Position numbers and translations under genes: made by a program. Shown in pieces: positions 4,167 through 26,380 of a DNA stretch of 34,826 bases (position 1 is its first letter; every line of letters begins with the position of its first letter). Source of the stretch: Rubrivivax sp. (GTDB taxonomy: Bacteria > Pseudomonadota > Gammaproteobacteria > Burkholderiales > Burkholderiaceae_C); the NCBI GenBank assembly GCA_016788525.1, contig JAEUPD010000059.1, positions 1 to 34,826 on the forward strand. Direction: 5' to 3'. The notes under the pieces were generated by a model. That model ran no database searches and was not told the DNA's origin. It saw nothing but the letters and a program-made list of their open reading frames with translations.

Positions 4167-4263
4167 GCGGCGCCCTGGGCAGGGATGGCCGGTGATTGGA
4201 TGGAGCCGCGCGCGCCGTGCGGGCGGGGTGAGTGCGTGGCGGCGACGTGCGGCCAGGCGCCGG

Positions 4264-9582: not shown

Positions 9583-11085
9583 CTACGCCAGCAACACCAC
9601 CGCCCCGCTCGTGGCCCTGCGCTCCAGCCGCGCATGCGCCTGCCCCGCGCCGGCCAATGAGTGCCGCTCCACCGGCGGCACGCGCAACGTGCCATCGGCG
9701 AGCGCCGCCCACAGCCGCGCCGCGCGTCTTTCCAACTCGGCGCGCGTGGCCACGTAGTCGAACACCACCGGCCGCGAGAAAGTGATGCTCTTGGCCAGGA
9801 GCGCGTGCGTGTCCAGCTGCGCCAAGGCGCCGGTGGCGTTGCCCAGGCTGATCCAGTGGCCGCGGCGGGCAAGCGCGGCGAGGTTCTCGTCGCGCGCGGC
9901 TTCGCCCAGGCCGTCGATCAGCACGTCGGCGCCGCCGAGTTGCTGCACGGCATCCGCAAAGCGGTAGTTCTCGCCCAGCACGATCACGTGCTGGCAGCCG
10001 TACTCGCGCGCCAGCCGCGCCTTCGCTTCGCTGGAGACGGTGCCGATGACGGTGGCGCCGAGCTTGCGCGCCCACGCGCACACGAGCAGGCCCACGCCGC
10101 CGGCGGCCGCGTGCACCAGCACGCGCGTGGGTCCGGAGCCCGATGAGCCGCGGCGGTCGAGGTGGCCGAGGTCGTGCACCAGGTAATCGGCCGTCAAGCC
10201 CTTCAGCAGCAGCGCGGCGGCGGTCTCGTCTTCCACCGTGGGCGGCAGGCGCACCACCGCGTCGGCGGGCACGTTGCGCACATGCGCGTAGCTGCCGGGG
10301 GTGTGCCACAGATACGCCACGCGGTCGCCGGACAGGAAGCCGTGCACCCCCTCGCCCCAGTCGAGCACGTTGCCCGCGGCTTCCATGCCGGGCGTGCCGC
10401 CTTCGGCCATCATCGGCGCAATCCAGCCGCGGCGCAGGTAGATGTCGATGTAGTTCACGCCGATGGCACGCTGGCGGATGCGCACCTCGCCCGGCCCCGG
10501 GGCCGGGCAGTCGGCATCCTGCAGCACCATCTGCTCGGGCCCGCCGTAGCGCGGCACGACGATGCGGCGCGAGGCCACGGGCAACGCGCGGGGCATCGCC
10601 GCCTGCGTCGATTCACGCGCCGCACCGGGCGCGCGCAGGTCGCCGCCTTCTCTCAGGTGCTTGCGCAGGTTCTCGAAGCCCGCCTCGTACACGCCCTGCG
10701 CCACCAGGTCGGTGAGTTCGCGTTCCATGCCGGGCGGCGTGGCGAAGGTGCTTTCCCAGTGCCAGAACGTGCGGTTGCCGTCGGTCACGGGCTCGAGCGT
10801 CACCGTGGCCACGTAGCGCTGCAACGGCACGGTGGCCTCGACGATGCAGTAGGTGCTCTTGTGGTGGCGGTCGTCCAGCGTCAGCAGCTGTTCGCGGATG
10901 TGGTGGCCGTCTTTCAGCGTGAAGTTGCGAACGCAGCCGACCTGGTCGCTCTTCTCGCCGCGCTCGATGCGGCTGGTGTCCACCACCGCGTGCCACTGGT
11001 CGTGGCTGTTGAAGTCGCGGATGACGGCCCACACGCGCTCGATCGGTGCGTCGATGACGGTGGAGCGGACGACGCGTTGCAGCAC
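9583..11085 (-). CDS. SRPBCC domain fused to zeta-crystallin-type quinone oxidoreductase
   Basis: A 500-residue two-domain protein. Residues 1-148 are an SRPBCC (START-like, MxaD-like) domain, with IDAPIERVWAVIRDFNSHDQWH at its start and GFENLRKHLREGG at its end. Residues 172-500 are a zinc-free medium-chain dehydrogenase of the quinone oxidoreductase group, with GVNYIDIYLRRG (209-220), GMEAAGNV and the NADPH-binding stretch VHAAAGGVG (324-332). The quinone reductase part is of full family length. The frame is continuous and starts at a GTG with weak ribosome binding context. An internal ATG at 10596 could make the oxidoreductase alone. The SRPBCC half resembles the stand-alone SRPBCC protein encoded at 11522-11962. 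It is the last gene of the long minus-strand run. The substrate is unknown. Confidence 0.88.
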   Translation of the reverse strand: MLQRVVRSTVIDAPIERVWAVIRDFNSHDQWHAVVDTSRIERGEKSDQVGCVRNFTLKDGHHIREQLLTLDDRHHKSTYCIVEATVPLQRYVATVTLEPVTDGNRTFWHWESTFATPPGMERELTDLVAQGVYEAGFENLRKHLREGGDLRAPGAARESTQAAMPRALPVASRRIVVPRYGGPEQMVLQDADCPAPGPGEVRIRQRAIGVNYIDIYLRRGWIAPMMAEGGTPGMEAAGNVLDWGEGVHGFLSGDRVAYLWHTPGSYAHVRNVPADAVVRLPPTVEDETAAALLLKGLTADYLVHDLGHLDRRGSSGSGPTRVLVHAAAGGVGLLVCAWARKLGATVIGTVSSEAKARLAREYGCQHVIVLGENYRFADAVQQLGGADVLIDGLGEAARDENLAALARRGHWISLGNATGALAQLDTHALLAKSITFSRPVVFDYVATRAELERRAARLWAALADGTLRVPPVERHSLAGAGQAHARLERRATSGAVVLLA

Positions 11086-11157
11086 GGGCGGCCGAAGTGA
11101 AAGGGCGCGGACTCGGAGGCGGCGGTGCGCGGCGGATGCGGCGGCCTCAGCCGCCGG

Positions 11158-11484
11158 TCACGGGTGCGGGCCCCAGGGGGCGGCCACCAGAAGCTGATTG
11201 GCCTGCGTCTTGATGAGCGGCCTGATCTGCTTGGCGAACGCCATGAAGTCGGCGTCTTCGAACAGGCGCTTCCAGTGCGCGCGGCGGTCGTCGTCGCTGT
11301 CGAACTTCCACAGGTGGACGAGCTGGTGCAGCTCGCCGGTGTCGGAGATGAAGTAGCCGACGAGCTTCTTCGCGAAACCGCCGGCTTCGAGCGCCGGGTA
11401 GCCCTGGCTGCCGTACAGCCGCACCACCTCCGACATCTGGCCGACGGTGACGCTGTAGGTGCGCTTCTCGTAGATCACGGGCAT
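11158..11484 (-). CDS. NIPSNAP-family protein
   Basis: A 108-residue protein of the NIPSNAP (dimeric alpha+beta barrel) family. It begins VIYEKRTYSVTVGQMSEVVRLY and has the typical central LVGYFISDTGELHQLVHLWKFDSDDDRRAHW. Members are small, often dimeric, and are frequently found in catabolic operons, but their biochemical role is not settled. An AAGGAG ribosome binding site lies 8 bases before the ATG. It sits between two SRPBCC-containing genes on the same strand. Confidence 0.9.
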   Translation of the reverse strand: MPVIYEKRTYSVTVGQMSEVVRLYGSQGYPALEAGGFAKKLVGYFISDTGELHQLVHLWKFDSDDDRRAHWKRLFEDADFMAFAKQIRPLIKTQANQLLVAAPWGPHP

Positions 11485-11521: not shown

Positions 11522-11962
11522 TCAGCGGCGCGCGAAATGTCGCTTCAGCGCGTCGAACCCGCCCTGGAACACGCCGTTGCCGATGAGCTCGGTCAGTTCG
11601 TGCTCGCGGCCCTCGGCGCAGTCGAACTCGGCGCTCCATTCGGCGAACGTGCGCTCGCCGTCGGTGATCGGGCTGAGCTTCAGCGTGGCCACGTAGTTGG
11701 CCACGCCCATCGGGCTTTCGAGGATCTCGTAGACGCAGGTGTAGTCGTAGTCGGAAAGCGCCAGCAGCCGCTCGCGGATCATGCCGCCGTCGCGGGTGTG
11801 GAAGTGGCGGATGCAGCCCACGCGATCGCTCGGCTCGTGGTTCTCGATGCGGCTGTCGGCGATGGCCGGGTGCCACAGCGGCAGCGCGTTGAAGTCGCGG
11901 ATGCGGCTCCACACCGTGTCGGCGGCGGCGTCGACCACCGATGAGACGTAGATCCGGATCAT
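11522..11962 (-). CDS. SRPBCC (MxaD-like) family protein
   Basis: A 146-residue single-domain SRPBCC protein, a fold with a deep hydrophobic ligand pocket. It begins VSSVVDAAADTVWSRIRDFNALPLWHPAIADSRIE, continues with VGCIRHFHTRDGGMIRERLLALSDYDYTCVYEI, and ends with GGFDALKRHF. The same words in the same order occur in the N-terminal half of the fusion protein at 9583-11085, so the two are paralogues two genes apart. It follows the flotillin-like gene by 13 bases. A ligand-binding or cyclase-like role is likely but unproven. Confidence 0.9.
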   Translation of the reverse strand: MIRIYVSSVVDAAADTVWSRIRDFNALPLWHPAIADSRIENHEPSDRVGCIRHFHTRDGGMIRERLLALSDYDYTCVYEILESPMGVANYVATLKLSPITDGERTFAEWSAEFDCAEGREHELTELIGNGVFQGGFDALKRHFARR

Positions 11963-11975
11963 TCAGTGCACCCGC

Positions 11976-13685
11976 TCACTCTTTGGCCTTGGGCGCCGAA
12001 GCCGGCGGGAGCGCAGCCGTGGCACCGCTGGCGCCGCCGACCAGACGCTGGATGTCACCGCCCTCGATGCCGATCTCACGCAGCAGCTGGTCCACCAGCG
12101 GCGCCTGGGCGCGGAAGCGCAGCGCGCTGTTGACCACGCCGTCGGCGAAGTTGCCCCCGCCGCCACTCACGCCGTTCAAGCCGTCGCCGCCACCGCTGCC
12201 GCCGCCCAGCCCGTCGACATGCAGGATCTTGATGCCCTCGATGCGCTCCATGGGCTTCACCGACTCGCGGATGATCGCTTCGGCTTTTTCCACCAGCTTC
12301 ATGCGCAGTGCCGACATGCGCGCCTCGGGGCTGAGCATGTTGTGCGCTTCGTTCATCAGGCGCAGCGCCTCGGCCTCGATCTCGGCGCGCACGCGCATCG
12401 CCATCGACCTGATCTTCTCCGCGTCGGCATCGGCCTCGGCCTGCGCACGGATGGCGGCACCGCGGTCCTCGCTGGCCGATTTCTCGGCCTTGGCCGCGAG
12501 CGTGAGGCGCAGCGCCTCGCGCTCGGCCTGCTGGCGCGCGCCGATGATCTCGATGGCCTTCTTGCGCTCGGCCATTTCCACCTCGCGCGCGGTGAACACC
12601 TTCTCCTCGGCGGACACGGCCAGCGCGCGCGCCACCTCGGCTTCGGCCAGCGCTTCGCTTTGCGCCTTGCTTTCCTTGGCGATGGCAATCGCGCGCTGCT
12701 GCTCGGCCAGCTCCAGCGCCTTGCGCCGCTCGATCTCGCTGGCCTGGATGGCGCGCTCCTTGCCGATGCGTTCTTGCTCGATGCTCTGCTCGCTGCGGAT
12801 GCGCGCGGCGTCGATGGCCTGCTTGGCGGTGATCTGCGCGCCTTCGGCGTCCTGCTCACGCTGGGCGCGTTCCGCGGCCAGGTCCGCGCGCTGACGTGCG
12901 CGGGCGATCTCCACTTCGCGCTGCTGCGCCAGGCGCGCCTGCTCGGCTTCCTTGTCGATGTCCAGACTGAGCTTCTCGGCCTCGAGGTTCTTGTTGCGGA
13001 TGGCGATCAGCGTGTCCTGCTCGACGTCGTTGCGCTGCTTCTTGCGCCGTTCGATCTGCTCGGTGAGGCGCGTCAGACCCTCGGCGTCGAAGGCGTTGCT
13101 CGGGTTGAAGTACTCCATCGCCGTCTGGTCCAGCTGCGTGAGGCTGGCGCTTTCCAGTTCCAGGCCGTTCTTCGTCAGGTCTTCGGCCACCGCCTCGCGC
13201 ACGCGCTTGACGTAGCTGCCGCGCTTCTCGTGCAGCTCCTCCATCGTCATCTCGGCGGCGGCGGTGCGCAGCGCGTCGATGAACTTGCCTTCCACCAGCT
13301 CCTTCAGCTGCTCGGGCTCCATGGTGCGCAGGCCGAGCGTCTGCGCCGCCGCAGCCACGCTCTCGGGCTTGGCGGCCACGCGCACGTAGAACTCGGCGAT
13401 CACGTCCACGCGCATGCGGTCCTTGGTGATGAGCGCCTTGTCGCGCCCGCGCGCCACTTCGAGGCGCAGCGTGTTCATGTTCACCGGAATCACGTCGTGG
13501 ATGATGGGCAGCACGAACGCGCCGCCGTCGACCACCACCTTTTGCCCGCCCATGCCGGTGCGCACGAACGCGCGCTCCTTGGAGCTGCGAAGGTACAGCC
13601 AGTGCAGCAGCCACACGACGATGGCGACGACGATCGCCGCGACGATCAGCGCAAGGATGAAACTGCCGAATTCAGCGCCGGTCAT
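11976..13685 (-). CDS. Flotillin-like (SPFH/YqiK-type) membrane protein
   Basis: A 569-residue SPFH-domain protein. A single N-terminal membrane segment (about 8-30, FILALIVAAIVVAIVVWLLHWLY) is followed by the SPFH domain (about 32-200), which starts AFVRTGMGGQKVVVDGGAFVLPIIHDV. A long charged Ala/Glu-rich coiled coil spans about 215-470 and includes repeated EAE and QRE patterns. The C-terminus is flexible and Gly-rich (GGGSGGGDG). Flotillins form large oligomers that organise membrane microdomains. An AGGAGA site precedes the ATG. In many bacteria such genes pair with an NfeD/YqiJ-type partner. None is present here, and the gene instead lies inside the transporter cluster, 37 bases after the TIM-barrel gene. 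Confidence 0.94.
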   Translation of the reverse strand: MTGAEFGSFILALIVAAIVVAIVVWLLHWLYLRSSKERAFVRTGMGGQKVVVDGGAFVLPIIHDVIPVNMNTLRLEVARGRDKALITKDRMRVDVIAEFYVRVAAKPESVAAAAQTLGLRTMEPEQLKELVEGKFIDALRTAAAEMTMEELHEKRGSYVKRVREAVAEDLTKNGLELESASLTQLDQTAMEYFNPSNAFDAEGLTRLTEQIERRKKQRNDVEQDTLIAIRNKNLEAEKLSLDIDKEAEQARLAQQREVEIARARQRADLAAERAQREQDAEGAQITAKQAIDAARIRSEQSIEQERIGKERAIQASEIERRKALELAEQQRAIAIAKESKAQSEALAEAEVARALAVSAEEKVFTAREVEMAERKKAIEIIGARQQAEREALRLTLAAKAEKSASEDRGAAIRAQAEADADAEKIRSMAMRVRAEIEAEALRLMNEAHNMLSPEARMSALRMKLVEKAEAIIRESVKPMERIEGIKILHVDGLGGGSGGGDGLNGVSGGGGNFADGVVNSALRFRAQAPLVDQLLREIGIEGGDIQRLVGGASGATAALPPASAPKAKE

Positions 13686-13722: not shown

Positions 13723-14553
13723 CTAACGCGTCAGCTGGGTGAAGCGCCGGGTGGTCTCGGTCAGCGCCACCTCGGTGGGCAGGCGTTCCATCGAGCTGGC
13801 GCCGTAGAAGCCGTGCACGCCCGGACATTGCTTCAGGATGAAGTGCGCGTCGTCGGGGGTCGCGATCGGGCCGCCATGGCACAGCACGATGACGTCGGGC
13901 TTGACGCCCTTGGCTTCGGCTGCCCAGGCGTTGATGGGGTCGACGCAGTCCTTCAGCTTCATCGCCGTTTCGGCGCCGATGCTGCCGCCGGTGGTCAGGC
14001 CCATGTGGCACACCACGATGTCGGCGCCGGCCTTGGCCCTGGCGCGCGCCTCGTCGGCGTTGAAGACGTAGGGCGTGGTCAGCAGGTCGAGCTTGCGGGC
14101 GCGCTCGATCATCTCCACTTCCAGGCCGTAGCCCATGCCCGTCTCTTCCAGGTTGGCGCGGAAGGTGCCGTCGATGAGGCCGACGGTGGGGAAGTTCTGC
14201 ACGCCACTGAAGCCCAGGTCGATGAGGCGGCGCAGAAACTGGTCGGCGATCATGAACGGGTCGGTGCCGTTCACGCCGGCCAGCACCGGCGTGCGCCTGA
14301 CCACCGGCAGCACCTCGCGCGCCATGTCGCAGACGATCTCGTTGGCGTTGCCGTACGCCAGCACGCCGGCCAGCGAGCCGCGCCCGGCCATGCGGTAGCG
14401 GCCCGAGTTGTAGATGACGATGAGGTCGATGCCGCCGGCCTCTTCGCACTTGGCGCTCAGGCCCGTGCCGGCGCCGCCGCCGATGATGGGCCGGCCGGCG
14501 GCGATCTTGGCGTTCAGGCGGCCGAGCAGTTCAGAGCGGGCGATGCGGGGCAT
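13723..14553 (-). CDS. PEP-hydrolase-family TIM-barrel protein (Tm-1 C-terminal-like)
   Basis: A 276-residue TIM-barrel protein of the phosphoenolpyruvate hydrolase / TIM-barrel signal-transduction family. It begins [34 protein letters not shown], then has [59 protein letters not shown] and [14 protein letters not shown]. The start at 14553 gives the conserved beginning and has a GAGGGAGA-like site about 12 bases upstream. The family belongs to the PEP mutase/isocitrate lyase-like TIM barrels, and the true reaction is not established. It begins 25 bases after the stop of a UPF0261-containing gene. In plant Tm-1 these two domains are joined in one chain, so they probably work together. Confidence 0.92.
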
Positions 14554-14578: not shown

Positions 14579-16849
14579 TCAGGCGCGGCGCGCGGCGGCC
14601 GCCGCGGGCGCGACTTCGCGCCAGGCGGCGACCAGCGCATCGGCGAAGGCCTCGTCGTTGATGTGGTGCGGCAACCGGATGAGCTTGCGATCGGGGCCGG
14701 CGCGAAAGCGCGTGGCGATGGTGTCGAACAACAGGCGGTCGGCTTCGGGGTCGTGGAACGGGCCGCCCGGCTTGTCGATCGCCGAAACGCCGCCTTCGGG
14801 GATGAGAAAGCGCACCGGCCCGCGCATCGCGTTGAGCTTGGCGGCGATGAATTCGCCGATGGCGCGGCACTCGTCGACGGTGGTGCGCATCAGCGTCACG
14901 GTGGGGTTGTGCCTGTACAGGCGCCGCGCCTTGAAGCGCTCGGGCACCGTGTCCCAGGCGCCGAAGTTCACCATGTCCAGCGCGCCGCAGCTGCCGACGT
15001 AGGGCACGGCGTGGCGCGCGAACACGTCCAGGCGCGTGGGGCCGGCACTCAGCGTGCCGCCACCGATCTCGTCGGCGATCTCGGTGGTGCTGACGTCGAT
15101 CACGCCTTCGAGCAGGCCGCTGTCGGCGAGCTTTTCCATGCTCTGGCCGCCGGTGCCGGTGGCGTGGAAGACGAGGCAGTCGTAGCGGTCCTCGAGCTTC
15201 TTGGTGACCATCTGCACGCAGGGCGTGGTGACGCCGAACATCGACAGGCCGATCGCCGGCTTGTGCGTGGAGGCGGAGCTGTCGCCGATGTTGCCGCCGT
15301 GGCTGATCATCCCGGCCAGCGCATGCGCGGCATTGGCCAGCACGCGTTGGCTGATGCGGTTGATGCCCTGCACGTCGGTGACGCTGTACATCATGCAGAT
15401 GTCGCTGGGGCCCACGTACGGGCGCGTGTCGCCGCTGGCCATGGTGCTGACCATCACCTTGGGCACGCCGATCGGCAGCGCGCGCATCGCCGGGGTGGCG
15501 AGCGACGCGCCGCCCGAGCCGCCGGCGGAGACGAGGCCGCCCAGGTCGCGGCGCGTGAGGATGAAGCGCTCGAAGGCCGCGGCCATGGCGGTGACGGCGC
15601 TGCCGCGGTCGCCGCTGAAGACCGCGCCCTCGCCCTGCGGATGGTGACGCGCCACCTCGCGCGGGTGCACGTTGGCCGTGCTCGTCTTGCCGCTGGTGGA
15701 AAGATCGACCGTCACCACGCGCAGGCCGAGTCTCTCGAGGCACTGCTTGAGGTAGAACAGCTCGCGGCCCTTGGTGTCGAAGGTGCCGGCCACGTACGCG
15801 GCGCGGCCGGTGCTCGAGGCCACCGGGAAGGGCAGCACGCTGGCCGCGGCCGGCACGGCGGCCCGGCCGGCGAAGCCTGCTGCGCCCGAAGAGGGCGAGG
15901 GCGCGGCATCGCGCGAGATGTCGTTGGCCGGCCCGGCCGTGCCGCCCGCGTTCCAGCGCGTGAAGCCGCGCACCGTGCGCGGCGACAAGTCATCGAGCGA
16001 CGGCGCGCCCTCGCCGTGTTCGCGCCGCACGGTGTACACGCGCGGCGCTTCGGCGGCGGCCACGGCGGGGGCGGCCGCGCCCGGGTCGGGCTCGGGTTCG
16101 TCGCCGGCGCTCTTCACGCCGAGCAGGCGCTCCTGCAGTTCGCGGTCGGCCGCCAGTTCGGCCGCCGGCATCAGCTCGGCGATGCGGCCGTTGACCATCA
16201 CGCCGATGCGGTCGGCCACGTCGAGCGCCACACCCAGGTTCTGCTCGATCAGCAGCACCGCAATCTCGCCCTCGCCGGCCAGCGACTTCAGCGCCTGCGC
16301 CACCTGGTCGACGATGACCGGCGCCAGGCCCTCGGTGGGCTCGTCCATCACCAGCAGTTTCGGTTCCAGCAGCAGCGCGCGGCCGATGGCCAGCATCTGC
16401 TGTTCGCCGCCCGAGAGCTGCGCGCCGCCGTGCCCCTTGCGCTCGGCCAGCCGCGGGAACATCGAATACACGCGGTCGACCTCGCGCCTGTTCGCCGCGA
16501 CGAGCTTCAACGTCTCGTCGACCGTCAGGCTCGGCCACACCCGGCGGCCCTGCGGCACGTAGGCGATGCCGCGCCGCGTGATCTCGTGCGGGCTGCGCCC
16601 GAGGACTTCCTCACCGAGCAGCTTCACGCTGCCGGTGGCCGACCCGATGGCATGGATGAGGCCGGTGACGGCATTGCACAGCGTCGTCTTGCCCATGCCG
16701 TTGCGGCCGACGATGCCGAGCACGCCGTGCTCAATGCTCAGGTGCACGGCCTGCAGCGCGTGCGCGCGGCCGTAGTAGACGTCCAGGCCGTCGATGACGA
16801 GGACGGGGCCTTTCGGTTTGGTGTCGAGCCTGCGTGACCAGAGTGCCAT
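14579..16849 (-). CDS. LivF-like ABC ATPase fused to UPF0261/Tm-1-like ATP-binding domain
   Basis: A 756-residue fusion. Residues 14-245 are a LivF-type ATPase with Walker [10 protein letters not shown] (48-56), Q-loop Q100, signature LSGGEQQ (145-151), Walker B LLVMDE (165-170) and the H-loop position occupied by Q203 in IEQN, as in LivF proteins. Residues 246-345 are an Ala/Pro/Gly-rich linker. Residues 350-750 are a complete UPF0261/Tm-1-like domain: [96 protein letters not shown] and [12 protein letters not shown]. It begins 15 bases after livG. The ATPase half should pair with the LivG-like protein to energise uptake. The role of the second half is unknown. There is no frameshift sign. 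Confidence 0.93.
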
Positions 16850-16864: not shown

Positions 16865-17785
16865 TCAGCCCAGCGACCGCCGCGGATCCGGCTTTGCCGG
16901 GCCGCTGGCGGTGCCCCCTGGGGGGAGGCGACCGAAGGTCGCTTCGGGGGGGGCGTGGTTCCCCATATAGATCGCCTGCACCTGCGCGTCGTTCTCGATC
17001 TGCTCGGGCGTGCCGGTCTTCAGCACCTGCCCGTTGTGCATCACGGTCACCTTTTCGGTGACGCGCAGCGCGATGTCCAGGTCGTGCTCGATGAGCACGT
17101 AGCTCATGTGTGCCGGCAGCGAGCGCAGCAGCGCCACCAGCTCGCGCCGCTCGGCGGGCGACAGGCCCGCCGCCGGCTCGTCGAAAAGGATCAGGCGCGG
17201 CGCGCCGGCCAGCGCCATGCCGATCTCCAGCTGGCGCTGCTGGCCGTGCGCGAGGTTGGCCACGAACTCGCCGGCGATGTGGGCGAGGCGCGCGCGTTCG
17301 AGCAGCTCTTCGGTGGCGCGCTGCGAGGCGTGCGTCGGCCCGGGCCGGCGGAACGAATAGCGGCCGCTGGCCACGCCCCGCACGGCGAGAAAGAGGTTGT
17401 CGCGCACCGTGAGCTCGCGGAACAGCAGCGAACTCTGGTAGGTGCGGCGCAAGCCCTTGCGGATGCGTTCGTGCGGCGGCAGTTCGGTGATGTCTTCGCC
17501 GAAGAAGCGGATGCGGCCCGCAGTGGGGGGGAAGTCGCCGGTGATGGTGTTGAACAGCGTCGTCTTGCCGGCGCCGTTGCTGCCCAGCACCGCGTACTTC
17601 TGACCCGCCGCCACCGACAGCGACACGTCGTCCACAGCCTTCAGCGCACCAAAGGCACGCGTGACGTTCTCGAGCACCAGCGCGTCGTTGGAGGCGAGCG
17701 TGCCGATGGCGTGAGCCGGCGCCCCGCCGCGCGCGAGGTTGCGCGCGGCGGGGTTTGTCGATCGCAGCTGTGTGATCGAAGCCAT
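16865..17785 (-). CDS. LivG-like ABC transporter ATP-binding protein
   Basis: A 306-residue branched-chain-amino-acid-type (HAAT family) ATPase. It has Walker A GSNGAGKTT, Q-loop TYQSS, signature LAHGQQRQLEIGMALAGAPRLILFDEPAAGLS including Walker B, and H-loop IEHDLDIALRV. Residues 1-35 are an unusual Ser/Ala-rich extension, and the ATG has no clear ribosome binding site, so the true start could lie further in. The last 28 or so residues (from PPEATFGRLPPGG to the stop) are encoded by a copy of an intergenic repeat that also lies just upstream of the gene. Its partners are the LivF fusion, the LivH and LivM permeases and the LivK receptor of the same run. The transported substrate is unknown. 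Confidence 0.93.
   Translation of the reverse strand: MASITQLRSTNPAARNLARGGAPAHAIGTLASNDALVLENVTRAFGALKAVDDVSLSVAAGQKYAVLGSNGAGKTTLFNTITGDFPPTAGRIRFFGEDITELPPHERIRKGLRRTYQSSLLFRELTVRDNLFLAVRGVASGRYSFRRPGPTHASQRATEELLERARLAHIAGEFVANLAHGQQRQLEIGMALAGAPRLILFDEPAAGLSPAERRELVALLRSLPAHMSYVLIEHDLDIALRVTEKVTVMHNGQVLKTGTPEQIENDAQVQAIYMGNHAPPEATFGRLPPGGTASGPAKPDPRRSLG
16866..16953. repeat. Intergenic-type repeat inside the 3' end of livG-like gene
   Basis: This segment runs from CAGCCCAGCGACCGCCG through a CCGGCTTTGCCGG hairpin and CCCCTGGGGGG to a CCGAAGGTCGCTTCGG dyad. The same order of words is found upstream of the gene at 17801-17914. Here the repeat is read as the C-terminal codons of the ATPase. 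Confidence 0.7.
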
Positions 17786-17922: not shown

Positions 17923-19176
17923 TCAGGGGCAGTTCGGCTCGTCGCGCGAACCGATCTTGAACTGGTCCTTCGGAATGCCCAGCAGTTGCTCGACGTTGTC
18001 GACCTTGCGCAGCACCTTGGTGACCAGGCCACCCTTTGCGTCCTTGACCACTTCGGTGACGAAGGTGGTGCCGATCGCCTGGCGGTTGCCGTCCAGCCGG
18101 ATGTCGCCGGTGGGGCCCTTCAACACCAGCTTGGACAGCGCCTCGCGGTACTTCATCTGGCCGCCGGCGAGGTCGCCCTTCACGGCGTCGAGTGCGTCGA
18201 GCGCGGCCTTCATGTTGACGTGATAGACGAAGGCAAACAGGCTCGGGCTCGGGAAGCCGCCCTTTTCAACCGGAAAGTGCTTCTTGTAGTCGGCGACGAA
18301 GGCCTTCCACTCGGCGCCGTCGTAGGCATCGGCCACCGGGCCGGCGCTGATCGTGCCCACGAGAGAATCGCGCCGCTTGCCGCGATAGTTGAGGATGTCC
18401 TGGCTGACGGTGATGCTGCCGCCCATCATCGGCTTGTCGCCGCCCGCGGCTTCGTACTGGTTGAGGAAGTTCACCGCGTCGGCGCCACCCAGCACCACGA
18501 GCAGCGCGTCGACATCCTTCGGGATGCGCGCGATGGTCGACGCGTAGTCCTTGCCACCCAGCGGTACCCAGGCCTTGACCGGCACCTTTCCGCCCAGGCG
18601 GCAGAACTCGGCCATGAAGCCTTGCACCTGCGAGTACGGGAACGCGTAGTCCTCGGCGATGACCATCACGCGCTTGTAGCCCTTGTCGATGGCCGCCTTG
18701 CCCAGGCCCACCATCCACTGCGCACCCTCGGTGTTGAAGCGGTAGAAATTGGGGCTGGGGTCTTGCAGCGTCGTGGCCTGCGCACCGCTGCCGCCATTGA
18801 TGAAGGTGACGCCCGGCTGTGTCTTGCTGTAGTTCTTGACGGCGATGCCTTCGCTGCCGGACAGCGGGCCGACCATGATGTCGACCTTGTCCTGCTCGAC
18901 GAGCTTGCGCGTGGCGTTCACGGCCACGTCGGGGTTGGCATTCGAGCTGCCCTTGATGATCTCCACCTTGCGGCCTGCGACCGTGCCGCCGCGCTGGATG
19001 AGCGCGAGCTCGGCACCGCGCATTCCGTCGGCGCCACCTGCGGCAAACGGGCCTTCGAGGGTTGCCAGCAGGCCGATCTTGATCGGCGCGCCCTGCGCCC
19101 AGGCGGCGCCGCTGATCGCGACCGCAGCGGCCGCACCCAACACAGAACGCATCAACACACGCTTGGTCACTTTCAC
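17923..19176 (-). CDS. LivK-like ABC transporter substrate-binding protein
   Basis: A 417-residue periplasmic receptor of the HAAT family (periplasmic binding protein type 1 fold). It starts at a GTG with AGGAG 7 bases upstream. The signal peptide is about residues 1-28, ending AWA before QGAPIKIGLLATLEGPFAAGG, the normal mature start. Further family marks are ELALIQRGGTVAGRKVEII, VDIMVGPLSGSEGIAVKNY, FINGGSGAQATTLQ and VDALLVVLGGADAVNFLNQY. It is followed in the run by the LivG- and LivF-like ATPases and preceded by LivM. Such receptors bind branched-chain amino acids, amides, urea or aromatic acids. The ligand cannot be read here. Confidence 0.95.
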   Translation of the reverse strand: MKVTKRVLMRSVLGAAAAVAISGAAWAQGAPIKIGLLATLEGPFAAGGADGMRGAELALIQRGGTVAGRKVEIIKGSSNANPDVAVNATRKLVEQDKVDIMVGPLSGSEGIAVKNYSKTQPGVTFINGGSGAQATTLQDPSPNFYRFNTEGAQWMVGLGKAAIDKGYKRVMVIAEDYAFPYSQVQGFMAEFCRLGGKVPVKAWVPLGGKDYASTIARIPKDVDALLVVLGGADAVNFLNQYEAAGGDKPMMGGSITVSQDILNYRGKRRDSLVGTISAGPVADAYDGAEWKAFVADYKKHFPVEKGGFPSPSLFAFVYHVNMKAALDALDAVKGDLAGGQMKYREALSKLVLKGPTGDIRLDGNRQAIGTTFVTEVVKDAKGGLVTKVLRKVDNVEQLLGIPKDQFKIGSRDEPNCP

Positions 19177-19202: not shown

Positions 19203-20342
19203 TCACGGCCTGCGCACCGCCTCGGGGCCGAAGCGCTGACGCAACTTCGACCACAAGCCGAGCAGGCCGTCGGGGGAAAACAGCACGATGGCGAGAAACA
19301 CGACGCCGATCACGAGGTTGAAGCGTTCGCGGTCGATGACGTCGATGGCGAAGGTCTGCAGCAGCACGAACACGATGGCGCCGAGGAATGCGCCGATCGG
19401 GTGCCGCATGCCGCCGAGCACGGCGATGACCAGGATGTTGATCAGCCAGCCGGTGCCCACCGAGTTGGGCGAGATGAGGCCGTTGTACCAGGTGAAGAGG
19501 ATGCCGCCGACCGCGGCGACGAGGCCCGAGAGCGCGTAGGCCGCCACACGATGCGCGACGACGTTGTAGCCGAGCGCGGCCATGCGCCGCGGGTTGTCGC
19601 GGATGCCTTGCATCGCAATGCCGAAGGGCGCGCGCACGAGCCACTTGACGAGCAGGTAGCCGGCCAGGCTGAGCGCCAGCGCGAGGAAGTAGAAGGGCAG
19701 CGGGTCGCGCCAGTTGACGTCCAGCACGACGGGTGGATAGACCTTCTGGAAGCCCTGGAAGCCGTTGAACAGCGAGTAGTTCTGCAGCACCAGGTAGTAG
19801 AACGCCACGCCGATGGCCAGCGTGATCATGATGGTGTAGATGCCTTCGGTGCGCACCGACAGCCACCCGATGAGGGTGGCGATGGCCACCGAGATGGCCA
19901 GCGCGAAGGGCACCACCACCCACCACGGCCAGGCGAGACTGATGCTCTGCGCGCTGGGGCCGAGGATGGAGACGACGTAGCCGGCGATGCCGGCCACGGT
20001 CATCTGCGCCAGCGAGATCATGCCGCCGTAGCCGCCGAGGAAGGTGAGCGACAGCGCGATGAGGCCGAGCGCGAGTGCCTGCCCGGCGATCTGGAAGGTG
20101 AAGAAGGGGGTGGCGAAGAAGGGGTAGAGCAGGGCGAAGGCGAGCACGAAGACGTGGCGCGCGCTCAGGTGCGCCCAGAGGAACTTGAGCCAGCGGGGGG
20201 CGTCGCTGTTGGCGTACGGGTCGACGGTGGGCAGGCCGGTGGCGGCACGCGCTAACGATGCGGTGGCCTTGGGTAGCGGCAGCGGCCTTGCGGCAGCGGC
20301 AAGGCCGGTGTTCATGGCGCGGCGCCAGTAGGCGGCGCTCAT
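19203..20342 (-). CDS. LivM-like ABC transporter permease
   Basis: A 379-residue inner-membrane permease of the HAAT type. An Ala/Pro-rich cytoplasmic N-terminus of about 60 residues is followed by about ten hydrophobic segments. Family words are ALGLIALSLTFLGGYGGMISLAQMTVAGIAGY, the RAPFGIAMQGIRDNPRRMAALGYNV loop (the ATPase-contact region) and GTGWLINILVIAVLGGMRHPIGAFLGA. GAGGAA lies 9 bases before the ATG at 20342, which supports this start over the ATG 9 codons later. It is separated from the livH-like gene by 724 bases of repeats, unusual for genes whose products form one complex. Confidence 0.94.
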   Translation of the reverse strand: MSAAYWRRAMNTGLAAAARPLPLPKATASLARAATGLPTVDPYANSDAPRWLKFLWAHLSARHVFVLAFALLYPFFATPFFTFQIAGQALALGLIALSLTFLGGYGGMISLAQMTVAGIAGYVVSILGPSAQSISLAWPWWVVVPFALAISVAIATLIGWLSVRTEGIYTIMITLAIGVAFYYLVLQNYSLFNGFQGFQKVYPPVVLDVNWRDPLPFYFLALALSLAGYLLVKWLVRAPFGIAMQGIRDNPRRMAALGYNVVAHRVAAYALSGLVAAVGGILFTWYNGLISPNSVGTGWLINILVIAVLGGMRHPIGAFLGAIVFVLLQTFAIDVIDRERFNLVIGVVFLAIVLFSPDGLLGLWSKLRQRFGPEAVRRP

Positions 20343-21066: not shown

Positions 21067-22020
21067 TCATGCCGCCTTCCCCATGATCCCCCGCGGCCGA
21101 AACGCCAGCACCAGCACCAGGATCACGAACGTGAACACCACCGAGTAGGTCGGCGCGTAAGCCAACCCATACGTCTCAGCCAAACCCAATATCACCGCCC
21201 CGATGGCTGCGCCCACCACCGAGCCCATGCCGCCGACGATCACCACGATCAGCGAGGCCAGCAGCAGCCGCGTGTCCTCGCCGGGCACCATCGACAACTC
21301 CACTGCGCCGATCACGCCGCCGATGCCTGCGAGTCCCGCGCCCAGCATGAAGGTGATCGCGAACACCAGGTTCACGTTCACGCCCGCGGCGGCCAGCATC
21401 GCGCGGTCGTCCACGCCGGCGCGGATCATCGTGCCGACCTTGGTGCGGTTGAGCAGCCACCACAGGAACACGCCGATGGCGATGCCGAAGCCCAGCAGGC
21501 TCAGCCGATAGGCCGAATACGCGCGGATCACCGGGATGTCGCGGATGGGCCCCTGCAGCCACGCGGGTGCCTCCATCTGATGCACCTGGCCGGTGAAGAT
21601 CCACAGCAGGATGTCGGCAATGACGATGGAAAGCCCGATCGTCACCATCGTCTGCCGCAGCTCCTCGCCTTGCATGTGGCGCAGGATCAGCACCTGGATC
21701 AAGAGGCCGACGACCGCCGCGGCGAGAAAGCCGCCGGCCATCGCCAGGATCCACCAGCCGGTCTTCTCGGCAATGGTGAAGGCGATGTACCCGCCCAGCA
21801 GGTACAACGAGCCGTGCGCGAGGTTGACGTTGCGCATGAGGCCGAACACCAGCGTGAAACCGCTGGCGACGATGAAGTACAGCGAAGCCAGCGTCAGCCC
21901 GTTGAGCAGCGTGAGCAGGTACAGGCGCGCGTTGTCGGCCAGCGCCCACAGCGAGAACACCGCGATCGGGCCGCCGATCAGCAGCCACAGCAGCCAGCGG
22001 ATGCGCTGCGAACGTGTCAC
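21067..22020 (-). CDS. LivH-like ABC transporter permease
   Basis: A 317-residue inner-membrane permease of the HAAT type, with about eight hydrophobic segments. Family words are LLNGLTLASLYFIVASGFTLVFGLMRNVNLAHGSLYLLGGYIA near the start, LRQTMVTIGLSIVIAD, the ATPase-contact loop RTKVGTMIRAGVDDRAMLAAAGVNV, and the end FRPRGIMGK. The start is a GTG whose last two bases form part of the stop codon of the preceding amidohydrolase gene (GTGA overlap at 22017-22020). This tight coupling ties the enzymes to the transporter. Confidence 0.95.
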   Translation of the reverse strand: MTRSQRIRWLLWLLIGGPIAVFSLWALADNARLYLLTLLNGLTLASLYFIVASGFTLVFGLMRNVNLAHGSLYLLGGYIAFTIAEKTGWWILAMAGGFLAAAVVGLLIQVLILRHMQGEELRQTMVTIGLSIVIADILLWIFTGQVHQMEAPAWLQGPIRDIPVIRAYSAYRLSLLGFGIAIGVFLWWLLNRTKVGTMIRAGVDDRAMLAAAGVNVNLVFAITFMLGAGLAGIGGVIGAVELSMVPGEDTRLLLASLIVVIVGGMGSVVGAAIGAVILGLAETYGLAYAPTYSVVFTFVILVLVLAFRPRGIMGKAA

Positions 22021-23300
22021 GCGGCGCGCTCCCAGGCCCGCGCGTTCACCGGCGGTGACTTCGCAAACTGCCCATCCTTCATCACTGCGAGGATGCGTTT
22101 GGGGTCGCGCAGGATGCCGATGTTGGCCAGCGGGTCACCGTCGAGCAGCAGCAGATCCGCGAGATAGCCCTCCTTCACGAGGCCCAGTTCACCCGGCCGC
22201 ATCATCACCTGCCCGCCGTACAGCGTGCACGAGCGAATGGCCTCCATTGGCGTGAAACCCAGGTGCTTGATGAAGAGCTCCAGGTCGCGCATGTTCTGCA
22301 GGTGGGGGTTGAAGGCGAAGCCGTAGTCGCCGCCGGGCAGCACGCGGATGCCGCGCTTGTGCATGGCCTTCAGGCTCTCGCAGGCGGCGGCCCACTCTTC
22401 CTCGTAGCCCATCTTCACGGCCTGCTCGTGCGTCACGCCCCAGGGCTCGGCTTCCCACAGCAGCGCCCACAGGATGCCGATGCCCGGCGCGACGAACACC
22501 TTGTCCTTGGCCGCCTCCAGCATGTCCAGCGCCTCTTCATCGGTGAAGCTGGCGTGGTAGATGAGGTGGATGCCGTGGCGCAGCGCCTGCTTGATGCTCT
22601 CGCAGCTGCGCGCGTGCACGATGATGCGCTTGCCGCGCATCTTCACTTCCTCGGCCGCGGCGGCGACTTCGGCATCGGTCATCCAGGTCGTCTTGGCGTC
22701 CGCACCGGGCACGAAGTTGTCGCCGGAGACGTTCAGCTTGATCGAGTCGACGCCGTACTTCAGGAACATGCGCACCACGCGGCGCATGTCCTCCGCGCCG
22801 TTGACCACCTGGCCGAAGCTGAAGTCGGGAAAGGGCAGGTGCGGCAGCATCTCGTCGCCCAGCCCCCCGGGCACGGTGATCTCCTGGCTGGCCGCCAGGT
22901 AGCGCGGGCCGGGAATCTGGCCGCTGTCGATGGCGTTGCGGATCACCACGTCCAGCCGCGGCTTGGCGCAGGCCGCGCCCAGGCAGCTGGTGAAGCCGGC
23001 TTCAAGGTAGCGCCGGGCGACCTTCGCACTCCACAGCACATGCTCTTCCAGCGGCATGGTCTGGATGGCGCCGAGCGTGGCCGCATCATTCCAGCTGAAG
23101 TGCGTGTGCGCCTCGCACATGCCGGGCATCAGCGTGGCGCCGGCGCCGTCGATGACGGTGGCGCTGCCCGGTGCGATGGGCGCGGTGCTGCGCCCCACCT
23201 GGCGGATGCGGTTGCCGCTGACCAGCACGCTGCCGGTGTAGGGGGCGTTCTGGCCCGTGCCGTCGAGGATGCGGACGTTGGTGAAGAGGGTGTCGGCCAT
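22017..23300 (-). CDS. Amidohydrolase-superfamily hydrolase, copy 1
   Basis: A 427-residue amidohydrolase of the binuclear-metal type (imidazolonepropionase/prolidase-like group). Predicted metal ligands are H65 and H67 (EAHTHFSWND), the bridging carboxylated lysine K188 (KYGVDSIKLNVSG), H229 (IVHARS), H249 (IYHASF) and D325 (PGGDYGFA). All are present. The N-terminal small beta domain starts MADTLFTNVRILDG. A GAGGAGA site lies about 9 bases upstream of the ATG. It is a tandem duplicate of the next upstream gene, sharing start, ligands and length class. It probably hydrolyses a cyclic amide, lactam or dipeptide-like substrate in the cytoplasm, but specificity is not readable. Confidence 0.93.
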   Translation of the reverse strand: MADTLFTNVRILDGTGQNAPYTGSVLVSGNRIRQVGRSTAPIAPGSATVIDGAGATLMPGMCEAHTHFSWNDAATLGAIQTMPLEEHVLWSAKVARRYLEAGFTSCLGAACAKPRLDVVIRNAIDSGQIPGPRYLAASQEITVPGGLGDEMLPHLPFPDFSFGQVVNGAEDMRRVVRMFLKYGVDSIKLNVSGDNFVPGADAKTTWMTDAEVAAAAEEVKMRGKRIIVHARSCESIKQALRHGIHLIYHASFTDEEALDMLEAAKDKVFVAPGIGILWALLWEAEPWGVTHEQAVKMGYEEEWAAACESLKAMHKRGIRVLPGGDYGFAFNPHLQNMRDLELFIKHLGFTPMEAIRSCTLYGGQVMMRPGELGLVKEGYLADLLLLDGDPLANIGILRDPKRILAVMKDGQFAKSPPVNARAWERAA

Positions 23301-23323
23301 GGCGCGGTCTCCTCTCGGTGGCT

Positions 23324-24646
23324 TCAGGCGGCCCAGCGCGTCATCGCCGGCGCGGCGGCGGCGCGGCCGGCGCCCGCGCCCACGCCACGCACCGGCGGCG
23401 CACGGTGGAACTCGCCGTCCTTCATCACGGCGAGGAGGCGCTTCCTGTCCTGCAGGATCGTGATGTCGGTGAGCGGGTCGCCGTCGATCAGCAGGATGTC
23501 GGCGAAGCAGCCCTCGCGGATGTAGCCGATCTCCTTGCCGTGCCCCATCATCGGCCCGCCCCAGGCGGTGGCCGAGAGCAGCGCCTCCATCGTGCTCATG
23601 CCCACGTGCTTGACGAAGTACTCGAGATCCTTGGCGTTGGTGCCGTGCGGTGTCCAGGCGAAGCCGTAGTCGCCGCCGGGCATGATGCGGATGCCGCGCC
23701 GGCGCATCGCCTTCATGCTCTCGATGGCAGCCTCCAGCTCGCGGTGGTAGCCCATCTTCTTCGTCACCTCCGGCGTCAGACCCCAGGCGCTGGCGTGGTG
23801 GCAGGTGTTGATGAGCCACGCGAGACCGGGCGCCACGAAGTGCTTGAACTTCGCGGCCTCCAGCATGTCCAGCGCCTCGGTGTCGGTGAAGCTGGCGTGG
23901 TAGATGACCTCGATGCCCTGCTTGATGCACTCCTTGATCGACCAGGTGCTGCGCGCGTGCGCGGCCACCCGCTTGCCCCAGCGCTTGGCCTCGTCGACGC
24001 AGACGCGGACCTCCTCCTCGGTGAACTGGCTCATCTCCGAGGGCATGCCGGTGATGCTCTCGCCCGAGAGGTTGATCTTGATCTGGTCGACGCCGTACTT
24101 GGCGAACATGCGGATGCAGCGGCGCATCTCCTCGGCGCCGCTGACGATGGCGCCGAACGCGAACTCGTGCTGCGGCAAGTGCGGCGCCGTGGTGTCGCCC
24201 AGACCCCCCGGCACGGTGATCTCCTGGCTGGCGGCGATGTAGCGCGGCCCGACGATCGTGCCGTCGTTGATGGCGTTGCGGATCACCACATCGAGCCGCG
24301 GCTTGGCGGTGGCGGCGCCGACGCAGCTCGTCCAGCCCATGTCGAGGTACTTCCTCGCCACCTGCGCGCACCACAGGATGTGCTCCTCGGGCGGCATGCG
24401 CTGGATGCTGTCGAGCGTGGGCTGGTCGTTCCAGCTGAAGTGCGTGTGCGCCTCGACCATGCCCGGCATCAGGAAGGCGCCGGCGCCGTCGATCACCGTG
24501 GCTCCCGCGATCGGCGGGGTGCGCTGGCCGAAGGCGGTCTTGACGACGCGGCTGATGCGGTTGCCGCTGACCAGCACGTCGCCGGTGAACGGGGTCTCGC
24601 CGCCGCCATCGAAGACGCGCACGTTGGTGAAGAGGGTGTCGGCCAT
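23324..24646 (-). CDS. Amidohydrolase-superfamily hydrolase, copy 2
   Basis: A 440-residue paralogue of the gene that follows it. Metal ligands are H67 and H69 (EAHTHFSWND), K190 (KYGVDQIKINLSGE), H230 (AAHARS), H250 (IYHASF) and D326 (PGGDYGFAW), so both copies should be active binuclear hydrolases. It starts MADTLFTNVRVFDGGG, preceded by an AGGAGG site. The C-terminus carries a 20-residue Ala/Gly-rich extension (GVGAGAGRAAAAPA) that copy 1 lacks. The copies differ mainly around the substrate loops (for example NTCHHASAWGLT against WALLWEAEPWGVT), which suggests related but different substrates. The intergenic spacing to both neighbours is 23 bases. Confidence 0.93.
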   Translation of the reverse strand: MADTLFTNVRVFDGGGETPFTGDVLVSGNRISRVVKTAFGQRTPPIAGATVIDGAGAFLMPGMVEAHTHFSWNDQPTLDSIQRMPPEEHILWCAQVARKYLDMGWTSCVGAATAKPRLDVVIRNAINDGTIVGPRYIAASQEITVPGGLGDTTAPHLPQHEFAFGAIVSGAEEMRRCIRMFAKYGVDQIKINLSGESITGMPSEMSQFTEEEVRVCVDEAKRWGKRVAAHARSTWSIKECIKQGIEVIYHASFTDTEALDMLEAAKFKHFVAPGLAWLINTCHHASAWGLTPEVTKKMGYHRELEAAIESMKAMRRRGIRIMPGGDYGFAWTPHGTNAKDLEYFVKHVGMSTMEALLSATAWGGPMMGHGKEIGYIREGCFADILLIDGDPLTDITILQDRKRLLAVMKDGEFHRAPPVRGVGAGAGRAAAAPAMTRWAA

Positions 24647-24669: not shown

Positions 24670-25491
24670 TCAGCGCGCGCGCTCGAGGAAGTCGCGCAGC
24701 ACGCGTTGCGACTCGGCCGGGCGCTCCAGCGTGGGCCAGTGTCCGCACCGGCCGAAGACCTCGACGCGCGCGTTGGCAAGTCGGCCGGCGAGCTGACGCG
24801 CGCCCGACAGGGGCGTGACCTGGTCCTCGTCGCCGTTGACGATGAGGGTGGGGCACCGGATCAACTCGAGCCGCGCGGCCTGCGCCTCGGCCAGCGCGAT
24901 GCAGTTGCGGGCGAATCCTTCGGCGTCCTGCGCCGCGATGCTGTCACGCACGTAGGCCACGGTGACCGGCTGGCTCTCGCGCGTGGAGGGCGACAGCGCG
25001 AACTGCGAGATGCCCTCGGCGATCTCGAACATGCCTTGCGCCCCCTGGTCCCGCGCGGTCGCGGCGCGGGCGCGCATGTTCTCGCGCTGCGCCGGCACCG
25101 GTTCGGCCATCGCGCCGAAGAGCGCCAGGCTGCGCACGCGCGACGGTTCCTTCGCCGCGACGTGCAGCGCGATGATGGTGCCGAAGCTGTGGCCGACGAG
25201 GTGGGCGCGCGCGATGCCGAGCGCCTCGCACACGCGCAGCACGGCGTCCGCATGCGTCTCGGCGCTGAGGTGGCCGCGGTGGGGCGTCGCTTCGCCCAGC
25301 GCGTAGGCCCTGCACGAGCGGCCTGCGCCCGGCAGCTCGGGCCGCACGCAGCGCCAGCGGCCCAGCGCCGGCAGCAGCGGCGTCCAGGCGTTCATGCTGC
25401 CGCCCAGGCCATGGATGAAGACGAGCGCCTCGGCGCCATCGGTGCCGCCGCGCACGTCGACGGCCATGCGGTCGATCCAGGCGATGCTCAT
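24670..25491 (-). CDS. Alpha/beta hydrolase
   Basis: A 273-residue alpha/beta-fold hydrolase. The oxyanion stretch is FIHGLGGS (25-32), the nucleophile is S102 in GHSFG, the acid is D223 in NGDEDQVTP, and the catalytic histidine is H251 in GRCGHWP. The triad is complete. There is no signal peptide. Members of this shape include enol-lactonases such as PcaD, esterases and C-C bond hydrolases. The position next to a FAH-family hydrolase, 10 bases downstream of it, suggests a degradative pathway. Start context is weak, but the beginning matches the fold well. Confidence 0.93.
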   Translation of the reverse strand: MSIAWIDRMAVDVRGGTDGAEALVFIHGLGGSMNAWTPLLPALGRWRCVRPELPGAGRSCRAYALGEATPHRGHLSAETHADAVLRVCEALGIARAHLVGHSFGTIIALHVAAKEPSRVRSLALFGAMAEPVPAQRENMRARAATARDQGAQGMFEIAEGISQFALSPSTRESQPVTVAYVRDSIAAQDAEGFARNCIALAEAQAARLELIRCPTLIVNGDEDQVTPLSGARQLAGRLANARVEVFGRCGHWPTLERPAESQRVLRDFLERAR

Positions 25492-25501
25492 GTGGGCGTG
25501 C

Positions 25502-26380
25502 TCATCGCTCTTCGAAGCGGTTCTCGATGAAACCGAGGCCGTCGACCTCGGCGCGCACCACGTCGCCCGGCCTCAGCCACTTGGGCGGCGAGAAGCCCAT
25601 GCCCACGCCGCTGGGGCTGCCGGTGGCGATGACGTCGCCCGGGTACAGCGTGATGCCGCGCGAGATGGCTTCGATCTGCGCGGCGATGTCGAAGATCATG
25701 TCCCGGGTGTTGGCGTCTTGCCGCAACTCGCCATTCACAAACCCGCGGATGCGCGTGGCCTGGCCGTCGAACTCGCTGGCGGTGGCGATCCACGGCCCCA
25801 TCGGGCAGAAGGTGTCGAAGCTCTTGCCCAGGTGCCACTGCTGGTGGCGCGTCTGCACGTCGCGCGCGCTGACGTCGTTGACGATGGTGTAGCCGAACAC
25901 ATGCTCCATCGCCCGCGAACGCGGAATGTTGATGCCCCCGCGGCCGATGACCACCGCGAGCTCGCACTCGTAGTCGACCTGCTCCGTGATCGCCCTGCCG
26001 GGCAGCCTGACGGTGTCATACGGACCGACCACCGTCTCCGGCACCTTGGTGAACACGATCGGCCACAGGTCGCGCTCGCGGCTTGGCGCCACCGCGTCGC
26101 GGAAGACGGTGGTGGAAAGCTCTTCGGCGTGCGCCCGATAGTTGCGGCCGATGCAGAAGAGGTTGCGCCGCGGGCGCAGCGGCGCGCACAGCGTGAGGGC
26201 CTCCACCGGCAGGCGTGCGCCCGCCGCCGGCGGCAGCGGGTCGCCATGGGCCAGCGAGCGCACCAGCTCGAACGCGCCGCGCTCAGGCCGCGGCGCGGCC
26301 AGCGGCGTCGCTTCACGTCCGTCGGCAGAGATGATGCCGACCTGGGGCCGGCCACCCCAGCTCCAGCTGGCGATGCGCAT
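25502..26380 (-). CDS. Fumarylacetoacetate hydrolase (FAH) family protein
   Basis: A 292-residue FAH-family enzyme. Members hydrolyse or decarboxylate beta-dicarbonyl or 2-oxoacid compounds in aromatic and related catabolism, using a divalent metal. The core starts at LFCIGRNYRAHAEEL (74-88). Metal ligands are E138 and E140 (DYECELAVVIG) and D169 (GYTIVNDVSARD). GKSFDTFCPMGPW, GDVIATGSPSGVGMG and the C-terminal GDVVRAEVDGLGFIENRF are all typical. It is the first gene of the long minus-strand run, divergent from the TetR-type regulator, and so is the probable control point. Confidence 0.94.
   Translation of the reverse strand: MRIASWSWGGRPQVGIISADGREATPLAAPRPERGAFELVRSLAHGDPLPPAAGARLPVEALTLCAPLRPRRNLFCIGRNYRAHAEELSTTVFRDAVAPSRERDLWPIVFTKVPETVVGPYDTVRLPGRAITEQVDYECELAVVIGRGGINIPRSRAMEHVFGYTIVNDVSARDVQTRHQQWHLGKSFDTFCPMGPWIATASEFDGQATRIRGFVNGELRQDANTRDMIFDIAAQIEAISRGITLYPGDVIATGSPSGVGMGFSPPKWLRPGDVVRAEVDGLGFIENRFEER

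Follow-up and report, generated by a model that had tools for sequence, protein, structure and literature searches.

The window (the whole stretch of DNA that was analysed, 34,826 nucleotides) carries on its minus strand a gene joining an importer ATPase to a UPF0261 domain, set among genes for the other parts of a Liv-type ABC importer, several hydrolases, a flotillin and SRPBCC proteins (Table 1). The order usually found around such fusions is FAH, alpha/beta-hydrolase, amidohydrolase, LivH, LivM, substrate-binding protein (SBP), LivG, LivF-UPF0261, TBST, flotillin, SRPBCC and SRPBCC(-ADH), and it is rearranged in some alphaproteobacteria. The shorter SRPBCC protein of the window is one that we take to be CoxG-like, and relatives of the second carry an added zinc-ADH part by Pfam. 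Several neighbouring frames without a Pfam family are probably spurious. Between LivH and LivM lies a GC-rich block of about 700 bp with many inverted repeats (20350-21060), which has 80 matching pieces in the source genome and resembles a palindromic repeat or mosaic element of the dispersed kind; in Variovorax the same two genes are separated by 61 bp. Farther out, the window encodes a caspase-like Peptidase_C14 protein (2159-3529) adjoined by a thymidine kinase (3570-4340) and, upstream of the operon, a UreE-like urease accessory protein (28849-29490) and an intradiol-dioxygenase-like protein (31073-31765).

Table 1. Features of the fusion operon, in window positions except in the last row, where positions refer to the named loci
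Feature	Position	Strand	Basis or remark
LivF-UPF0261 fusion gene	14579..16849	(-)	756 aa: LivF-type ABC ATPase, linker, UPF0261
LivF-type nucleotide-binding domain, residues 1-245	16115..16849	(-)	PF00005 at 32-172; motifs
Low-complexity linker, residues 246-346	15812..16114	(-)	pLDDT <50; RW island at residues 298-299
UPF0261 (Tm-1-like) domain, residues 351-756	14582..15799	(-)	PF06792 and PF23189 above cut-off; pLDDT
PEP_hydrolase / TBST TIM-barrel gene	13723..14553 (ORF opens 14640; start inferred from alignment)	(-)	PF09370, 432 bits
LivG-type ATPase, presumed heterodimer partner of LivF	16865..17785	(-)	
Periplasmic substrate-binding protein	17923..19170, start approximate	(-)	PF13458 (Peripla_BP_6)
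LivM-type permease	19203..20342	(-)	PF02653
LivH-type permease	21067..22020	(-)	PF02653
Amidohydrolase	22017..23306, start approximate	(-)	PF01979
Amidohydrolase, second copy	23324..24646, start approximate	(-)	Translation; two amidohydrolase phmmer labels in window
Alpha/beta hydrolase	24670..25491	(-)	PF00561
Fumarylacetoacetate hydrolase (FAH) family protein	25502..26380	(-)	PF01557
Flotillin	11976..13685	(-)	PF15975, PF01145
SRPBCC protein	11522..11962	(-)	PF10604
Second SRPBCC protein	9586..11157, stop-to-stop frame	(-)	phmmer label; Pfam of relatives
TBST-sigma-54 activator fusions	L087 14623-16452; L088 7081-8862; L127 1-2319		

The fusion frame opens at an ATG and, read on the minus strand, runs through its 756 codons without an internal stop. 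Its N-terminal part matches ABC_tran (Pfam, residues 32-172, 92.5 bits against a cut-off of 25) and contains a Walker A motif, Q-loop, signature, Walker B motif (LLVMDEP) and the LivF-type EQN, all invariant or nearly so across an alignment of 43 fusions. The C-terminal part is matched by both UPF0261 families, PF06792 for the N-terminal half (residues 351-516, 206.9 bits against 27) and PF23189 (UPF0261_C) for residues 530-746 (302.8 bits against 27), and passes the NF002673 equivalog (596.7 against 520). AlphaFold modelling reached a mean pLDDT of 92.2 for the UPF0261 part alone (alignment of 62 sequences) and of 79.9, with a pTM of 0.49, for the whole chain (alignment of the 43 fusions); in the whole-chain prediction both domains are confident and their mutual placement is left unspecified. 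The 756-residue frame is thus genuine, with a complete LivF-type ATPase, a linker and a complete UPF0261 domain, as the earlier note had read it from the translation, and the existence of the fusion and its operon is near certain. The ATPase half shares its motifs with the ATPases of the LivFGHM and urea UrtDE (HAAT) importers, as well as an operon containing LivG, LivH, LivM and Peripla_BP_6, but differs from them by its added 500-residue C-terminal extension. It scores below cut-off against the equivalogs of LivF (NF008626, 151.9 against 441 bits) and UrtE (208.7 against 285.8), scores that make it LivF-type but neither LivF nor UrtE proper; being so far below the LivF cut-off, it need not serve an importer of amino acids.

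The roughly 100-residue linker is predicted to be disordered, residues 246-346 having pLDDT values below 50 in the whole-chain model. Linker length ranges from 76 to 166 residues across the fusions, and an RW island present in 40 of 43 linkers may be a docking motif. Linker dN/dS, a rough measure because the linker alignments are gappy, was estimated for 11 of 42 possible pairs; one pair was saturated, and the other 10 gave 0.22-0.95, compared with 0.11-0.40 for the LivF part and 0.13-0.44 for the UPF0261 part. By this measure the linker looks faster-evolving than both domains, yet constrained and translated. Methionine occurs in 25 of 43 linkers, which is uninformative about internal initiation. 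The earlier note had envisaged that resequencing might reveal a frameshift or an overlooked stop near codons 246-345; many independent assemblies have the frame open, and this, together with the linker dN/dS, rules out an assembly artefact or missed stop.

The fusion is widespread, contrary to the other outcome allowed for at the outset, that it might occur in a single genome. A whole-protein search among 60 relatives found intact fusions in 9 of 36 other genomes of the genus (L005-L013), together with a fragment that starts inside LivF at a contig end (G029), a UPF0261 tail at another contig end, so that the fusion state is indeterminate there (G010), and an unfused UPF0261 of 67% identity (G023, L015). 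The order was sampled through 399 genomes; a close UPF0261 (E ≤1e-60) occurs in 20 of them, and 10 of these 20 loci are fused, with the window counted. A phylum sample of 398 genomes gave 33 matches in 28 genomes, 14 of the 30 loci read being fused (window counted) and the three remaining matches lying in frames of 423-438 aa, too short for a fusion. Named genomes were scanned with a UPF0261 alignment, and the best 80 loci of 585 relatives, 11 plasmid-record loci and the window made up a set of 92; among these listed matches 57 read as fused, 32 as unfused and 3 were set aside (contig ends truncate two, and the third has its halves in different frames), flotillin being present in all three of the latter. 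A restriction to one genus is ruled out by the order, phylum and named-genome matches. The fusions, which diverge down to 50% identity, occur in Beta- and Alphaproteobacteria and, by the record title of MAGs, in Gammaproteobacteria too; named records that carry them include Variovorax paradoxus, Shinella zoogloeoides and Yoonia. A LivF-like ATPase is the fusion partner at all 57 fused loci read, bearing out the suggestion that UPF0261 is physically tied to an importer, here of the Liv/HAAT type.

In Actinomycetota none of 22 matches was fused (296-genome sample, E up to 1e-60, 19 genomes with matches), 21 of the frames being at most 572 aa and hence too short, and the single 756-aa frame (G1088) having no LivF part. 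A search for other UPF0261 domain fusions found no domain besides UPF0261 in the long frames of L002, L018, L019 and L021 (Pfam, E up to 1e-5), and phmmer found no LivF part in the 910-aa UPF0261 frame of L057. The source genome itself holds two more UPF0261 paralogues, both unfused and of about 34% identity to the fused domain (G000:C199, which is L002, and G000:C9, which is L003). In Mesorhizobium sp. AR07 (L158 8905-11227, titled a complete genome) the LivF half is out of frame with the UPF0261 half, through either a sequencing error or a secondary split. L113, a fused copy whose contig is binned as Candidatus Rokuibacteriota, sits within the betaproteobacterial group on the tree, reflecting either transfer or mis-binning. 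L119, from a contig binned as Candidatus Odyssella, has the fusion operon in its typical form and clusters with Azospirillum, Fodinicurvata and the betaproteobacterial fusions, so that mis-binning is likely.

The fusion is tied to one conserved operon type. Where enough flank is available, flotillin lies downstream at 43 of the 44 fused loci and at none of the 29 unfused ones; LivH or LivM lies upstream at 50 of 51 fused and 5 of 29 unfused loci. Unfused UPF0261 elsewhere adjoins CUT1 sugar importers in some loci, and at 22 of the 32 unfused loci neither a Liv- nor a CUT1-type permease, the two types searched for, was found on the same strand within 10 kb. LivF and UPF0261 also occur as separate genes close to one another: they adjoin directly in Tagaea (L128) and in Thermomicrobium (L037), whereas some 0.9 kb lies between them in Bradyrhizobium (L091). 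In Thermomicrobium LivG, LivF, UPF0261 and TBST follow in the same order, all separate, an order that looks like the unfused arrangement.

In the window the gene after the fusion encodes, as a separate chain, the TIM-barrel protein TBST, which we take to be COG5564. TBST adjoins UPF0261 at 49 of the 57 loci read as fused and at 30 of the 32 read as unfused. The eight fused loci without an adjacent TBST comprise one that ends at a contig edge (L099), a further one (L151) and six (L148, L153, L154, L155, L156 and L160) with TBST elsewhere in the genome in every case. In five of these (L148, L153, L155, L156, L160) the distant TBST has another UPF0261, an unfused one, as its neighbour; in L154 the fused UPF0261 is the only one found, and TBST is far away. 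Fusion operons without an adjoining TBST occur in Mesorhizobium (L148, L151, L155, L156, L160) and a related alphaproteobacterial MAG (L153). The adjacency and co-occurrence agree with the co-evolution of UPF0261 and TBST (Mirrortree r 0.886) given in the accessible text of PMC5028733, and with COG5441-COG5564 being among the phylogenetic-profiling pairs reported for fungi in the portion available of PMC8963296, COG5441 being UPF0261 (PMC2364660, in its accessible part). The closest solved structure to the TBST of the window is Mll9387 (PDB 2p10), matched over nearly its full length (421 bits). We know of no activity for Mll9387 that the match could lend to TBST. Near some UPF0261/TBST operons TBST forms the N-terminal part of sigma-54 activators (AAA and Fis-type HTH), and it therefore probably binds a metabolite of the pathway.

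On UPF0261 trees the fusions cluster far beyond shuffled labels. The first tree had 94 rows, including the very long branch of L091; the tree for the one-clade test had 91 (60 fused against 31), leaving out L091 and two outgroup paralogues and counting as fused L100 and L145, at contig edges, and L158, with its split frames. The AU test does not reject a tree in which all fusions are held together in a single clade (p-AU 0.18); one fusion clade appears in 0% of 200 bootstrap trees, and the fused/unfused label changes four times on the tree, at least three of the changes being forced by well-supported branches. Unfused L124, L128, L134 and L150 lie near the base of the fusions and unfused L141 inside them. 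A single gain with losses would fit these trees, and more than one origin would also be compatible with them. The L141 gene itself (10001-11188, in a Granulosicoccaceae MAG) is an unfused UPF0261 frame of 420 aa without any of the queried neighbour genes.

A Foldseek search of the UPF0261 model against the PDB gave 17 matches at E up to 0.001, comprising 12 Tm-1 chains, two chains of entry 9mpy and three weak matches to alpha/beta-hydrolases (ranks 15-17, TM 0.28-0.29); a viral fold library returned two matches within the same E limit, unconvincing at TM ≤0.23. Tomato Tm-1 and plant Tm-1-like structures (PDB 3wrw, 3wrx, 3wry) are the closest solved fold, with 38-41% identity to the full-length Tm-1 chains by Foldseek and 464 bits. 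We know of no kinase activity for Tm-1. Entry 9mpy (released September 2025) is by its title the structure of a UPF0261 domain protein, Saro_1862 of Novosphingobium aromaticivorans, to which acetovanillone is bound; the chain in the crystal has 406 residues and lacks an ATPase part. The fused domain has the same fold over its full extent (Foldseek E 8.6e-37, 34% identity, profile 282 bits) and is closer to Tm-1 than to Saro_1862. Common to the fusion clade, Tm-1 and Saro_1862 are the motifs DTK..E, GGS.G, ST.ASG, G.GG, TE..D and HN...(T/S).(M/V)RT, and the same invariant UPF0261 residues occur in fused and unfused members. Tm-1 consists of the same two modules, UPF0261 and TBST (PMC5028733, accessible text), joined to each other in plants, whereas in the bacterial fusion UPF0261 is carried by an ABC ATPase and TBST is a separate gene.

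The accessible text of PMC13101465 describes MarK, a single-component acetovanillone kinase of N. aromaticivorans. Since MarK and Saro_1862 agree in organism and ligand, they are probably the same protein, in which case UPF0261 can be a kinase. Phosphorylation of a phenolic compound at the start of its catabolism is known from the HpeHI, AcvAB and PpsAB dikinases, so far as the available portions of PMC9618137 and PMC12167813 describe them. These would do the same job as that proposed here for the fused UPF0261, but they belong to another fold family, of ATP-grasp and swivel domains, and are described as a pair of soluble components that carry no transporter part. Acetovanillone was considered as the substrate of the operon and thought unlikely, because neither an HpeCBA-like carboxylase nor an HpeD-like phosphatase is found among the annotated operon neighbours; the operon is thus probably not an acetovanillone pathway. 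Beside LivFG, UPF0261 and TBST, Thermomicrobium roseum encodes a PPDK_N protein and one with a PEP-utiliser swivel domain (L037 14380-15351, 18217-19911), a pair with an architecture like that of the HpeHI/PpsAB two-component aromatic dikinases. As this cluster already has such a pair, UPF0261 may carry out another step there; by analogy, the pair would support an aromatic substrate and weaken the need for a second kinase.

The UPF0261 half is likely to be an enzyme that acts on the imported compound, and for its being a kinase the arguments are about evenly balanced. The preferred reading, held with equally balanced confidence, is that of a kinase tethered to an importer, with a flexible linker holding a small-molecule kinase to the LivF ATPase. 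LivF would pair with LivG and power uptake of a compound handed over by the periplasmic binding protein; UPF0261, tethered at the cytoplasmic mouth of the importer, would phosphorylate the arriving compound at the expense of ATP, and phosphorylation would trap it in the cell. The neighbouring TBST might bind the product or complete the reaction, and the hydrolases, flotillin and SRPBCC proteins of the operon could continue catabolism. Kinase activity in the fusion branch, trapping and the TBST role are what we infer. A similar benefit is discussed for phenol phosphorylation after passive uptake by Dexter et al. (PMC9618137, in the part available). With 76-166 residues the tether suits local action better than tight allostery. 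The coupling that it would provide between kinase and importer is putative, and the tether may merely set 1:1 expression; it appears dispensable in some places, since L015, L141 and L158, near or within the fusion group, are unfused. More tentative still is an ABC-family analogue of group translocation, in which one tethered machine, with a flotillin membrane microdomain and a TIM-barrel partner, would use ATP both to import and to phosphorylate an aromatic or similar hydrophobic compound, and so capture it vectorially.

Rather doubtful, though the best placed of the other explanations, is that UPF0261 is a pathway enzyme of another kind, such as a lyase, hydrolase or isomerase that works together with TBST, and that its tether to the importer serves channelling. 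The occurrence of UPF0261 together with TBST in several operon types and their co-evolution (r 0.886, PMC5028733, accessible text) are consistent with it, as are the presence of hydrolases and lack of an obvious phosphatase among the annotated operon neighbours, and the position of the fusion branch closer to Tm-1 than to Saro_1862. The matches to alpha/beta-hydrolases (TM 0.28-0.29) point the same way, but they are weak, and the sole UPF0261 match in the PDB with a catabolic ligand comes from an organism with a single-component kinase for that very ligand (PMC13101465, as far as its available text goes), an argument that returns to the importer-tethered kinase.

It is improbable that UPF0261 is instead a regulatory domain, binding the imported compound or its product and inhibiting or activating transport. 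MetN- and MalK-type ATPases have accessory domains that regulate transport, and UPF0261 stands C-terminal to the nucleotide-binding domain like these; TBST at the head of sigma-54 activators beside some operons also makes ligand sensing by the module plausible. Against this, a disordered linker of 76-166 aa is long for direct allostery, fused and unfused UPF0261 have the same invariant residues, and UPF0261 is free-standing at 32 of the 92 loci read, 22 of which gave no Liv- or CUT1-type permease on the strand of UPF0261. A domain that stands alone, or beside CUT1 importers, is not an importer-specific sensor, so that of the two functions that the earlier note had offered, sensing of transport finds no support and action on the imported compound is the better one. 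The latter is favoured because the UPF0261 protein of 9mpy holds an aromatic catabolic substrate for which the same organism has a kinase (PMC13101465, available text); the description of UPF0261 as uncharacterised is for its part partly outdated by that entry. Slightly less probable again, and very unlikely, is a neutral fusion, in which adjoining LivF and UPF0261 genes lost a stop codon and nothing depends on the tether. The separate neighbours in Thermomicrobium and Tagaea and the near neighbours in Bradyrhizobium are in keeping with it, as are the split frames of Mesorhizobium AR07, unfused L141 among the fusions, the unfused relative in the same genus (G023/L015, 67% identity) and the linker being the least constrained part, but the fusion is kept at 57 loci read and down to 50% identity, with the RW island in 40 of 43 linkers and dN/dS below 1 in all 10 measurable pairs of the 11 tested.

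The fusion is a combination of two known kinds of protein, an importer ATPase and a UPF0261 protein, and a literature search by family names (title and start of abstract) found no paper describing it. If the UPF0261 half phosphorylates the imported compound, ABC import and metabolic trapping would be coupled in one protein, which to our knowledge has not been described for ABC importers, and a single machine may take up the compound and carry out the initial reaction on it. The fusion also offers a direct handle on two widespread and poorly known families, UPF0261 and TBST: the ligand of the binding protein would be the prime substrate candidate for both and would offer a lead on the Tm-1-like proteins of plants. 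In two public records the fused protein is labelled 'ABC transporter permease', a name under which the fusion is hidden.
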